From a virus, in IMG/VR virus record IMGVR_UViG_3300009194_000009, positions 1-64,000 of that record: 64,000 bases of DNA; one strand, given 5' to 3'. Numbering within the stretch: the first letter of the stretch is position 1; every line of letters begins with the position of its first letter. The notes beneath the pieces are model-generated. The model searched no databases and had not been told where the DNA came from. It was given only the letters and a program-made list of their open reading frames with translations. Of this stretch, positions 15,734-20,652 are shown one piece after another. The translations under genes and the position numbers were made by a program.

Positions 15734-18213
15734 ATGTCTTATGTAAGTGCATTTATTGACGATGATGATATGGTTGTCATCGAACGAGTAAATGGTGAAA
15801 GAACAATAAAGAAAGATAAGGTGGAGTATGTCTACTATACACTAGACCAGTATGGTGACCACAAAACCATATTTGACGAAAGCTGTACCAAACATATCTA
15901 CGACAATCGCCGGGAATTTTATGGTTCCATGAAACAGTATCCTAAAGATATTGTCTATGAGAACGATGTTAATCCAGTATTCCGGTATCTCAGTAAAAAT
16001 TACGACTTCGAAGAAACACCCGATCTTAATGTTGCATTCTACGATATCGAGGTGGCTTTCCATAAAGAAACTCGGTATTCAAATCCAGAGTTGGCCGAAA
16101 ATGAAATCATATCTGTAGCAGTATACCAAAACTGGTCAAATACTATGTTCATGATTGCCCTGCCACCACCCACTATGACAATGAAAGAATGCGAAGACAT
16201 ATGTACTAAGATTGAGTCCGAAGAATACGAGTATGACTTGAAGTGTATTATGGTTGACTCAGAAGCATCACTTTTAAAGTGTTTTCTTTTGTTGATCGAA
16301 GATAGTGATGTTATATCCGGTTGGAACTCCGAATCATACGATTTCAAATACATTTATAATCGAATTCCTAAAATCATAGGCAGGCACTACCTCAAAGAAC
16401 TATGCATAGGCGGTAAAGAACCTAATAGGAAAACAGTAAGGAACGATAAAACTAAACAGTTCGAAGAGATATACACACCAATTGGTCGTGTACACCTCGA
16501 CTATATGAATCTATATAAGAAATATACATATATAGAACAACCGACCTATAAGTTGGATCATATTGCTTATATCGAACTTGATGAACGCAAGGTCGAATAT
16601 TCTGGATCGTTAGATCAGTTATATAAAGAAGATTTTGAATTATTCGTAAGATATAACATTAAAGATACCTATCTTGTTAAGCGAATTGACGATGAGAAAG
16701 AGTTTATTGATCTGACAAACCTTCTGGCACACAACAACGGTGTACTGTTAGAGACAACGTTGGGTACCGTAGGGATCACTGAACAAGCAATCATTAACCA
16801 AGGTCACTATTATAGTGAAGATGAGCTTATATTCCCATCTAAGCCTGAGAAAGATGAAAACATTTCAGGCGCAGCAGGCGCTTTTGTTTCTCCACCCAAA
16901 ATTGGGATACGTAAGCTTGTTGCAGGTAACGATATCAACTCTCTGTATCCGTCAGTGATTCGTGCGCTTAATATGAGCCCTGAAACACTTATTGGTCATA
17001 TTAATAGTGACGAAACTGATCAAATCGTTATTGATAAAGTAGAAAGCGGTGAATGTGAATCATTTGCAGAGGCATGGCAACCATTCTTCAATACTATTGA
17101 ATTTGAAAGAGTAATGAAGGGTAGTGATGAAGAGGTAACATTTGAATTCAATAGATCCGATGAAACAGTTACTGCACCAGCCTATAAAATCAGAGATATG
17201 ATTTATAATGACGATAAGTTCACAATTAGTGCAAATGGTACTGTTTTCAGTCGAGAGAAACAGGGTGTTATTCCAGCTCTTCTAGAGCGTTGGTATTCTG
17301 AACGTAAGAAGATGCAAGCTGAGGCTGAAAAGTGGGAAAAGATTATGATTGAAACCACTGACCCTGAAGAGAAAGAGAAAGCAACAAAAGAATATAAGTT
17401 CTGGGATCAGCGTCAGATGGCTAAAAAAATTAATCTTAACGCGTAAAGTACTGCGCCTTCATATAGTAATATATGTCGAATAACTCCTTTAATTGCTGGG
17501 AACTCCTATAAGGACAATCAGCAGCCAAGCCCAAACGGGAAGGTTCAACGACTAGTCGTAAGACGTACACTCAAGTGAGTGGAAAAGGGGAGCAACCAAT
17601 ATGGTTGATGATATAGTCTGATCTTGTATGGTAACATACAGCAGTTCATAAGAGAACGGGACAGAATTAACGACTCTGTTCGAACATTAATGTGTACGGT
17701 GCATTGCTTAATAAATACTGTCGTTTTTATGACAAGCGTATTGGTCAATCAACTACATTAACTGGTCGTAGTATCACCAGACATATGAGTTCGCATATCA
17801 ATGAACAGATTTGTGGTACGTATACACATTTAGGTGATTCTATTATATATGGTGATAGTGTCGAAGGCGATACTATTATCAATACCACTATGGGTGATAT
17901 GACCATAGAGCAAGCCTTTTCTATGGGAAATAAGTTCTGGAATCAGGAATCTCACGGGAAAGAGTATAGTCACAATGATAACATGAAAGTTAAGACCTTT
18001 GATCCTGATAAGGATGAAACGTATTATGGCGATATAAACTACATATACCGCCATAAGACGAGTAAACCTAGGTGGAAGATTGTTGACAGTGACGGCAATG
18101 AGGTCATAGTGACCGGAGATCACAGTGTCATGATCGAACGTGATAACACTATTGTGAAAGTAAAACCCAGTGATATACAGGAAGGTGATGTTCTGGTATC
18201 GTTCGATGAATAA
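15734..18213 (+). CDS. 43: DNA polymerase N-terminal part with intron and split-intein N fragment
   Basis: Family B replicative polymerase, N-terminal portion. The reading frame is 15734-17444 joined to 17693-18213 (743 residues). Visible motifs: Exo I FYDIEVAF, Exo II GWNSESYDFKYIYNRI, Exo III YNIKDTYLVKRI, Pol A NDINSLYPSVI, and Pol B KKINLNALYGA, which forms only after the group I intron is removed. The chain reaches YGD of motif C at 17848-17856 and then becomes the N fragment of a split intein (118 residues). Without RNA splicing, translation stops at TAA 17444-17446, exactly at the exon edge. The remaining Asp of motif C is encoded by another gene (19135-20652), so neither part can polymerise alone. 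AGGAGG precedes the ATG. Confidence 0.92.
17445..17692 (+). ncRNA. Group I intron in DNA polymerase gene
   Basis: A 248-base intron without an open reading frame. Conserved core elements are seen in order: P (AATTGCTGGGAAC, from 17491), Q (AATCAGCAGCCAAG, from 17516), R (GGTTCAACGACTA, 17542-17554) and S (GATATAGTCTGATC, about 17609-17622). The 5' exon ends in T (17444), which can form the G-U pair of P1: exon GCGU 17441-17444 with intron GCGC 17453-17456. The intron ends in G (17692). Joining 17444 to 17693 restores GCG-TTG-TAC, giving NALYGALLNKY, the expected motif B. Most like the subgroup found in DNA polymerase genes of other large phages. Boundaries are inferred from exon continuity. 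Confidence 0.88.
17857..18210 (+). other. Split intein N-terminal fragment (pol-c site)
   Basis: 118 residues starting with Ser (SVEGDTIINTTMGDMTIE) directly after YGD. Block A is this first strand set; block B is VTGDHSVM with the T-x-x-H pair that activates the N-terminal splice bond. The fragment ends at DIQEGDVLVSFDE and a stop codon, as split inteins do. Its C-terminal partner is at 19135-19266 beyond a homing endonuclease gene. Similar in sequence to the complete second intein at 19273-19743. Confidence 0.9.
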
Positions 18214-18272: not shown

Positions 18273-19145
18273 ATGCCAAAGTGTTTAGAATGCGGAGTTG
18301 AATTACCGCGATTGCAATGGACTCATTTTAAGTATAAGTGTACCGGAAGGTTCTCTAATGGACGAGAATATCAGGAGTTTTACAAGGGTGCCAAATTAGT
18401 AGATGATGATATTGCTAAAAAAACGTCTCTTACTCTTGGGAACTTTATCAAGAAATATGGGAAGGGCGTTGGTACTGAGAAGTGGAATGAGTACCGTCAG
18501 AAACAAGCATATAGTAATACGTTTGAGTATAAAAAACAAAAACACGGTTGGTCAGAAGAAGATTACAGTGAGTTTAATAAATCTAGGGCGGTGACGTTGG
18601 AAAACTTTATTAAAAAATACGGTATTGAAGAAGCAACGGAAAAGTTTGATCGGTATTGTAAGCGCCAAGCATATACCTGTTCAGAAGAGTATTTCATTGA
18701 AACGTACGGACTCGATGAAGGGCGTAGGAAATACAATAATTTTGCTAAAATTAGGGTGGGAAACGTTTTACGCCTATATTCACAGGGTATTTCAAAAATA
18801 GAAAATGAGGCATATAATGCATTGAAATGTGTGTGTCCTGCAATAGAACACCAAGTGACACTTGATGGATCTTACTTTGGACCATATGATTTTGGGTCCA
18901 TAGAAAGAAAAAAAGTCATTGAATTTTATGGTAGTTATTGGCACTGTGATGCACGGATTTATGAAGCTTCGTATCATCATAGCCAAATAGATAAGAATGC
19001 CAGAGCAATTTGGAACCATGATGCACGAAAAAGAAGCTATGCATTGAATCAAGGTTATAAAGTATATGTGATTTGGGAAATGGATTGGATGAATGACAGG
19101 GAAAATGTTATTGAAAAGGTAAAAAGGTGGTGGAGTGAAAGCTAA
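18273..19145 (+). CDS. Vsr/EDxHD-type homing endonuclease within the split intein
   Basis: A 290-residue free-standing endonuclease gene between the two halves of the split intein. The N-terminus has a zinc-finger-like CLECG...H...C pattern (Cys4, Cys7, His17, Cys22) common in phage homing enzymes. Residues about 50-165 contain three similar helix-turn units (NFIKKYG...TEKW; NFIKKYG...TEKF; FIETYG...RRKY), probably DNA-binding modules. The C-terminal domain (about 185-285) has the Vsr-like fold signature: FGPYDFGSIERKKVIEFYG, YWH, an IWNHDARKRSYALNQGY helix and VYVIWEMDW. It should cut uninterrupted polymerase genes and spread the arrangement. It ends inside the start of the next gene (11-base overlap). 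Confidence 0.85.
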   Translation: MPKCLECGVELPRLQWTHFKYKCTGRFSNGREYQEFYKGAKLVDDDIAKKTSLTLGNFIKKYGKGVGTEKWNEYRQKQAYSNTFEYKKQKHGWSEEDYSEFNKSRAVTLENFIKKYGIEEATEKFDRYCKRQAYTCSEEYFIETYGLDEGRRKYNNFAKIRVGNVLRLYSQGISKIENEAYNALKCVCPAIEHQVTLDGSYFGPYDFGSIERKKVIEFYGSYWHCDARIYEASYHHSQIDKNARAIWNHDARKRSYALNQGYKVYVIWEMDWMNDRENVIEKVKRWWSES

Positions 19146-19266
19146 AAGAACAAAAGTGGTTTCGGTAGAGCAACTTGAGGATTTTTCCGACGAGTACGTA
19201 TATGATGTTGGTATGTGTAATAGTGAGCATAATTGGTTTTTTGGTAACAACATACTTCTGAAGAAT
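19135..19266 (+). other. Split intein C-terminal fragment
   Basis: 44 residues with block F DEYVYDVGMCNSEHNWFFG and block G NNILLKN followed by Thr. The penultimate residue is Lys rather than the usual His, which is tolerated in some inteins but may need help for Asn cyclisation. The +1 residue is Thr of extein YGD-TD. Confidence 0.88.
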
Positions 19267-20652
19267 ACGGATAGTGTTCGTAAGGATACTCTAATCGAAA
19301 CCAGCATGGGAGAATTAGACATTGAATCATTATTTGAAGAATGCTCAATAAAGTGGGAAAATCATGGTAAAGAGTATGCCGCTGATGAACGATTGAAAGT
19401 ACCTTCGTATGAGAATGGTAGTGTCCTATGGAAAGTACCGGACTATATATACCGTCATCGAACAAAGAAGAACATGTTCCAAATAATTACAGCTTCAGGG
19501 AACAACGTGTTTGTCACAGAGGATCATAGCTGTATGACTGTGTGTGAGAATGGCCATATGGTAGAGAAAAAACCACATTCGTTACAGACAGGAGAAAATG
19601 TTATTATTTATCGAGATACGAAACCTGTCATGGAACAAATAGCGGATGTTGTTCACACAGGAGAGATAGATGATTATGTCTATGATATTGGTGTTGATGA
19701 AGACACCCCTTACTTTTTCGCCAATGGTATATTAGTTCATAACTCATCGTATTTCTCCGTCTATGAGGCTTATATGGCATCTGGTGATGAAGAAAAACAG
19801 TCAATGGCCAAAGCTATGTTCGATGATCGTGATCTAGCCGTGCAGATTTATGATTCTATTTCAGAAAAAACTAATGAAAGTTTCCCATCTTTCATGAATG
19901 AAAGATTTAACACTGGGATCGATAATGGAACTATAATTAAGGCAGGTCGTGAAAACCTTGCAAGTCATTCATTGTTTATTAAGAAAAAGCGTTATGCTAT
20001 GAATTTGTTTGATAAAGATGGTATTCGACTTGATAAGAACGGTAAAAGTGGTAAATTGAAGATCATGGGTCTTCAAATAAAAAGGTCAGATACCCCTAAA
20101 ATGATCCAAGATGCGTTGAAAGAAGGTATGGATATGCTTCTCAATGGTGTTCCTGAGAATGAAGTGATCACATACTTTACTGAATTCAAAGATGAACTGT
20201 CGCAAAAATCACCATGGATTTTAGGACGCCCGAGTGGTGCAAACGCGGTTAAACACTATACAGACCTGCACTATAAGTATGTGAACGGGGAAATAAGTAA
20301 AAAACCTACCATACCGGGAGCGATTGCAGGAGCAATTACATGGAATGAGCAATTGGACATTAATAATGAAGAACATATTGAAAGAATTGGTGATCAATCT
20401 AAAGTTGTTACCTGTAAACTGAGGAAAAATGATTTTGGTTATACGAATATTTCGTATTTGACTGACCAGACCCAATTTCCTGATTGGTTTAAAGAAATGC
20501 CATTTGATACAGAACTAATGTTAGAAACAATATACTATAAACCGTTACTAACAATCTTTGGTGTTCTTGGATGGGATGTGAACCTTATAAGGAAAGGTAC
20601 CAAATTTAAAGATATGTTCATCATGGATGATGACGATGAAGAATTCTTTTAA
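19135..20652 (+). CDS. 43: DNA polymerase C-terminal part with intein C fragment and second intein
   Basis: 505 residues in four parts: split intein C fragment (1-44), two extein residues Thr-Asp (45-46), a complete mini-intein (47-203), and the polymerase C-terminal extein (204-505) beginning SSYFSVYEAY. After both splicing events the chain reads YGD-TD-SSYFSV, a standard motif C. The later KKKRYAMNLFDKDG is the KKRY primer-binding motif, and the acidic end FKDMFIMDDDDEEFF may contact the sliding clamp. Total spliced polymerase is about 929 residues, close to T4 gp43 (898). The start is GTG 19135 with GGTGG/GGAG just upstream, inside the endonuclease gene, so translation of the two is coupled. 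Confidence 0.92.
   Translation: MKAKRTKVVSVEQLEDFSDEYVYDVGMCNSEHNWFFGNNILLKNTDSVRKDTLIETSMGELDIESLFEECSIKWENHGKEYAADERLKVPSYENGSVLWKVPDYIYRHRTKKNMFQIITASGNNVFVTEDHSCMTVCENGHMVEKKPHSLQTGENVIIYRDTKPVMEQIADVVHTGEIDDYVYDIGVDEDTPYFFANGILVHNSSYFSVYEAYMASGDEEKQSMAKAMFDDRDLAVQIYDSISEKTNESFPSFMNERFNTGIDNGTIIKAGRENLASHSLFIKKKRYAMNLFDKDGIRLDKNGKSGKLKIMGLQIKRSDTPKMIQDALKEGMDMLLNGVPENEVITYFTEFKDELSQKSPWILGRPSGANAVKHYTDLHYKYVNGEISKKPTIPGAIAGAITWNEQLDINNEEHIERIGDQSKVVTCKLRKNDFGYTNISYLTDQTQFPDWFKEMPFDTELMLETIYYKPLLTIFGVLGWDVNLIRKGTKFKDMFIMDDDDEEFF
19273..19743 (+). other. Complete mini-intein (YGDTD/S site)
   Basis: 157 residues from Ser (SVRKDTLIETSMGELDIE) to HN (GILVHN), followed by Ser. Block B is VTEDHSCM; blocks F and G are DDYVYDIGVDEDTPYFF and ANGILVHN. 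No endonuclease domain. It is clearly related to the split intein two residues upstream: both share the SV..DT.I.T.MG start, HGKEY, a Y-IYRH-T-K segment and a VT.DHS.M block. Confidence 0.9.

Follow-up and report, generated by a model that had tools for sequence, protein, structure and literature searches.

Two homologous inteins separated by a two-residue extein in motif C of a phage family-B DNA polymerase

The window analysed here is a stretch of 64,000 nucleotides (positions 1 to 64,000 of IMG/VR virus record IMGVR_UViG_3300009194_000009) from a metagenomic contig of 93,417 bp that encodes a family-B DNA polymerase resembling T4 gp43. In the phage collection, its closest counterpart is the polymerase of Salicola phage SCTP-2 (61% identity in the C-terminal extein). 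The polB gene is broken three times: by a group I intron at motif B and, at motif C, by a split intein (intein 1) and a contiguous intein (intein 2) (Table 1). We refer to the two motif C insertion sites, whose DNA positions are 6 bp apart, as c1 (YGD^TDS) and c2 (YGDTD^S). When all inserts were removed in silico, an open polymerase of 929 amino acids was obtained in which YGDTDS is intact and the joined exteins read ...SIIYGDTDSSYFSVYEAY. The rejoined motif C agrees with those of SCTP-2 (YGD^TDSSYF), Aeromonas phage Aes508 (YIDTD^S) and an intein-free polymerase, L010 (YGDTDSCYF), which was the sole match in scans for close relatives using the window proteins.

Table 1. Features of the interrupted polB gene, in window coordinates
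Feature	Coordinates	Strand	Basis
polB exon 1, exonuclease domain to motif B (...KKINLNA-L)	15734..17444	+	Pfam DNA_pol_B_exo1, DNA_pol_B; reconstructed U/intron junction
Group I intron (248 nt) splitting the NALYG Leu codon, last base G	17445..17692	+	Rfam RF00028
polB exon 2, up to motif C Tyr-Gly-Asp	17693..17856	+	exon reconstruction
Intein 1 N-half: Ser1, block A, R-H NX motif, TGDH block B	17857..18210	+	TIGR01445 above cut-off; alignment
Putative Vsr-type homing endonuclease gene, free-standing, 290 aa, flanked by the two halves of intein 1	18273..19145	+	NCBIfam vsr, relatives
Intein 1 C-half, 44 aa, blocks F and G, end ...NNILLKN, penultimate Lys	19135..19266	+	alignment, reconstruction
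Two-residue extein Thr-Asp (ACG GAT), part of motif C	19267..19272	+	sequence, reconstruction
Intein 2, complete mini-intein, 157 aa, Ser1 ... His-Asn, C-extein +1 Ser	19273..19743	+	TIGR01445, TIGR01443, AlphaFold
polB C-extein (SSYF..., rest of palm and thumb), includes stop codon	19744..20652	+	PHROG 262 and 1918 DNA polymerase

The first polymerase open reading frame stops at 17446 because the group I intron interrupts motif B. An Rfam search matched RF00028 over its full length at 17435-17641 (95 bits, E=3e-23), and the junctions, with U17444 before the 5' splice site and G17692 at the 3' end, are those of a group I intron. Removal of the intron gives LNALYGALLN, a protein junction identical to that of SCTP-2. 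The intron has no open reading frame of its own and was absent from the original prediction for this locus, which had been made from the sequence alone. With all three inserts in place, a single enzyme would need RNA splicing, protein splicing in trans and protein splicing in cis.

The N-half of intein 1 begins directly after YGD and is followed by a stop codon (18211-18213). The two halves lie on separate open reading frames around that of the endonuclease, a fractured-gene arrangement that is also found in relatives. Intein 1 has the residues of a class 1 intein (Ser1, Asn162 and +1 Thr), its block B reads TGDH, and it scored 26.6 bits against TIGR01445 (intein N-terminal; curated cut-off 24.5). 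The penultimate residue of block G is Lys and not His, which is usual at this position but not strictly defining. A penultimate Lys occurs at 4 of 70 distinct c1 junctions (the window, 19258-19266; SCTP-2, L001; L014; L047) and at 0 of 43 c2-type junctions. AlphaFold modelled the lone C-half with low confidence, as is expected for a split partner modelled without its mate. The endonuclease matched NCBIfam vsr (TIGR00632) with E=2e-4, which is under the curated cut-off; genes at the corresponding position in related phages carry a VSR annotation, and the window protein is ~37-46% identical to the endonucleases so placed in split inteins of other phages, at c1 as well as at c2. The fractured genes of Dassa et al. 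2009 reportedly have split intein halves flanking a free-standing endonuclease gene, as in the window, and are not known to have a second intein beside the junction.

The open reading frame downstream of the endonuclease (19135-20652, GTG start) reads VKAKRTKVVSVEQLEDFSDEYVYDVGMCNSEHNWFFGNNILLKN / TD / SVRKDTLIE...YFFANGILVHN / SSYFSVYEAY, and motif C as a whole is YGD-[intein 1]-TD-[intein 2]-SSYF. Intein 2 scored above the curated cut-offs of both TIGR01445 (34.0 bits) and TIGR01443 (intein C-terminal, 30.0 bits), and Pfam Intein_splicing was above its own cut-off on the same open reading frame. It is a class 1 intein by its Ser1, TxxH, His-Asn and +1 Ser, and in the alignment it lacks the block F His. 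AlphaFold modelled intein 2, for the most part confidently, as an all-beta fold (pLDDT in the blocks mostly 66-91). Intein 2 carries no endonuclease; on the intein tree, several related inteins have one between their halves. Both window inteins share SV..DT, the Arg-His NX motif (YIYRH) and 8 nucleotides around each N-junction (GATAGTGT). The NX His is invariant in our alignment, and an NX His preceded by Arg or Lys is a signature of Ser1 inteins (PMC10189870), which places both in the Ser1 subgroup. The solved structures nearest to them are 9hth (Aes123 PolB1 intein) and 8cpn (PolB16).

These results bear out the central claim of the original prediction, that two inteins lie two extein residues apart in motif C: the exteins are restored exactly, and intein profiles exceed their curated cut-offs (the N-terminal one in both inteins, the C-terminal one in intein 2). 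The proposed layout, a split intein ending before Thr-Asp followed by a 157-residue intein before Ser, agrees with the coordinates and with the open 929-aa polymerase. The homology proposed for blocks A, B, F and G was recovered in an alignment of the two inteins (about 35% identity).

The prediction also suggested a search for polymerases carrying either intein alone, and both sites proved to be commonly filled singly in phages. The c1 site, which is the pol-c site of archaea and Mimivirus (PMC549080), is filled singly in SCTP-2 and Klebsiella phage KP13-7, with about 70 distinct junctions among the matches listed. For c2, about 41 distinct motif-C junctions were counted among the matches listed, the carriers being PA5oct-like, Aeromonas, Tenacibaculum, Campylobacter and Lak phages; the Lak, PTm1/PTm5, LR756500 and Campylobacter phages carry a single c2 intein only. 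A second intein behind Thr-Asp was present in only two alleles among the matches listed, that of the window and that of L116 (IMGVR_UViG_3300021431_000095), in which two mini-inteins of 166 aa each lie in one 831-aa open reading frame. In an AlphaFold model of the L116 tandem, the second intein was confident and the first was of low confidence. No close relative of L116 was found in the collection searched. Pattern and protein scans of viral contigs gave no tandem besides L116 among the matches listed, the other pattern matches being single c1 alleles or unrelated proteins, and one tandem-pattern scan of genome contigs found no intein. Some tandems may be missed because the patterns require particular block G and block A residues.

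A metagenomic contig could in principle owe such a structure to an assembly or recombination artefact that joined a c1 allele to a c2 allele. We regard this as very improbable, since all reading frames are intact, the exteins rejoin perfectly, intein 2 lacks a close match among the known single alleles that might have been misjoined, and the unrelated L116 contig carries the same two-site tandem with both mini-inteins in one open reading frame. The same uninterrupted reading frame argues against a sequencing error, one of two ways in which the prediction was said to be open to refutation. The other, the presence of the tandem in many phages, does not apply, as it was found in 2 of about 109 distinct motif-C alleles among the matches listed. 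The tandem is real, rare and recurrent. The prediction knew of no described precedent, and we found no report of two inteins with a two-residue extein between them in the open-licence literature searched, although one may exist beyond it. Earlier work has described free-standing endonuclease genes flanked by the halves of a split intein, inteins at each site, and genes that hold both an intron and an intein (PMC6892783, PMC3322345). What appears to be new is the two-residue intein tandem; each insertion site filled singly and the kind of element are already known.

Other inteins were also noted. In L087, a phage PolB that also bears a c2 intein, an intein C-terminal junction (NNILVHN/CAIWVAKKKY) near the KKKY motif downstream of motif C marks another insertion site. 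In L092 and L105, the c1 inteins are 364-377 aa long and lie within a single open reading frame; these form a separate branch of the intein tree and likely contain a built-in endonuclease domain. Outside the window, the same contig carries a third intein (G000:C1:85279-85518, minus strand; locus L240) in a 765-aa open reading frame that looks like a gene for a putative T4-like portal protein.

The intein tree joins intein 1 to the c1 intein of SCTP-2 as its sister (100/97), places the pair inside a group of c2 inteins (98/90), and puts intein 2 in a separate group of c2 inteins (99/98). A local duplication, in which one intein was copied to the neighbouring position and the copies then diverged, would explain why the two are homologous, with many shared residues and 8 nucleotides in common around each N-junction. 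However, intein 1 shares 57% identity with the SCTP-2 intein and only about 35% with intein 2, and because the two also lie in different supported groups of the tree, a recent duplication is unlikely. Constraining the window inteins to be sisters lowered the log-likelihood by 28 units, though the AU test formally left this topology unrejected (p=0.08), and the two L116 inteins are likewise far apart on the tree. Taken as a whole, duplication seems to us an improbable origin.

The polymerase tree pairs the window with SCTP-2 (filled at c1 only) and L116 with L033 (filled at c2 only) as sisters, and the window and L116 polymerases are distant from each other. Because of this distance and the different sites filled in the nearest relatives, the two tandems probably arose independently and in opposite order. 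In the simplest history, c1 would have been filled first in the window lineage and c2 gained later, with the reverse in the lineage of L116. Mapping the site labels required about 13 changes on the polymerase tree, of which at least 7 were forced, versus 4 on the intein tree, indicating that inteins move among polymerases and that the filled site often switches. The window endonuclease (like L003 and L103) groups with c1-associated endonucleases (99/95), though intein 1 resembles c2 inteins. An exchange of the endonuclease between inteins is possible, and there are hints that a c2-type splicing domain moved to c1 with a c1 endonuclease. We take this c2-to-c1 shift as a lead only, because the AU tests leave the alternatives unrejected (p=0.12 when the window c1 intein is placed with the main c1 clade; p=0.33).

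We consider it likely, judging from sequence comparison, that the window polymerase carries separately acquired class 1, Ser1-type inteins at c1 and c2 and is matured by intron loss together with cis and trans protein splicing in either order. The tandem would have formed when a c1-bearing polymerase, as in SCTP-2, gained a mini-intein at c2. The transcript would lose the group I intron at motif B, and translation would give an N-precursor (polN-YGD-IntN1) and a C-precursor (IntC1-TD-intein 2-SSYF-polC). Intein 2 would excise itself in cis and intein 1 would splice in trans, whichever came first, and the product would be an unscarred YGDTDS polymerase.

The original prediction held that such close spacing demands a special splicing order. 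This is not supported, since the residues flanking each junction are identical with or without the other intein. Intein 1 is followed by +1 Thr, +2 Asp and +3 Ser whether intein 2 is present or gone, the Ser being unchanged because intein 2 and the C-extein both begin with Ser; intein 2 is preceded by -1 Asp and -2 Thr in both states. As neither event changes the neighbouring junction residues, neither intein should need the other to splice first, and the order is probably free and independent. The c2 relatives Aes123 PolB1 and PolB16 splice in vitro (PMC11923092, PMC10189870). Relatives share changes such as a penultimate Lys or a missing block F His, and the window inteins with these residue changes may be slower. 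A general rule of complementary loss, with one member of a pair lacking the block F His and the other the penultimate His, was rejected, as some c1 inteins lack both.

The penultimate Lys of intein 1, the missing block F His of intein 2 and the potential of homologous inteins to cross-pair all fit a different outcome, in which one intein or the whole tandem is inactive, or IntN1 and the C-end of intein 2 splice as a unit and delete Thr-Asp. This has little to recommend it, as the deletion would cost a replicative polymerase a catalytic Asp, the catalytic junction residues are all present, and the two inteins are divergent, with related PolB inteins reported to be orthogonal (PMC12707363, PMC10189870). 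Because cross-pairing of the outer halves would remove that Asp, the pair should be selected to stay distinct, and both its divergence and the reported orthogonality agree with such selection.

Among known systems, the SCTP-2 PolB mini-intein (MF360958) is nearest in intein and in polymerase and shares the c1 site and the NNILLKN end, but it is contiguous, and SCTP-2 has no endonuclease gene, an empty c2 and no motif B intron. The PolB inteins of Pseudomonas phages PA5oct and MIJ3 and Aeromonas phages Aes123 and Aes508 (PMC6892783, PMC11923092) also lie in motif C of a T4-like PolB, are of Ser1 type and are split with a free-standing endonuclease gene, but each is a single intein at c2 only. 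The split PolB intein of KP13-7 is at c1, with an endonuclease in the clade of the window endonuclease, but is likewise single. L116 has c1 and c2 filled with Thr-Asp between them; it differs in that both inteins are contiguous, there is no endonuclease gene, the polymerase is distant and the order of gain appears to be opposite. The Haloferax MCM-a and MCM-d inteins are two in one gene whose homing can interfere; their sites are described as close and both endonucleases as active (PMC10643990), and they are not known to flank a two-residue extein.

Also, the tandem might be a composite mobile element, a reading we hold tentatively and think less likely than not to be correct. The intein 1 endonuclease would break motif C once, and because intein 2 sits 6 bp away, a single repair would move both inteins. 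Intein 2, which has no endonuclease, would then ride as a passenger and escape the two-break interference that was found for Haloferax MCM-a and MCM-d (PMC10643990). Alleles with both sites filled would also be stepping stones by which phage polymerases change their filled site between c1 and c2.

The tandem sits in the catalytic motif that is most strongly conserved in a replicative polymerase and illustrates how densely protein-splicing elements can be packed, as two Hint domains would have to fold and react on either side of a two-residue extein. It offers a natural setting in which to probe splicing order and how related inteins are told apart, and a neighbouring pair of Ser1-type inteins for protein engineering. 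For the phages themselves, motif C presents two offset homing sites, between which their polymerases switch repeatedly.
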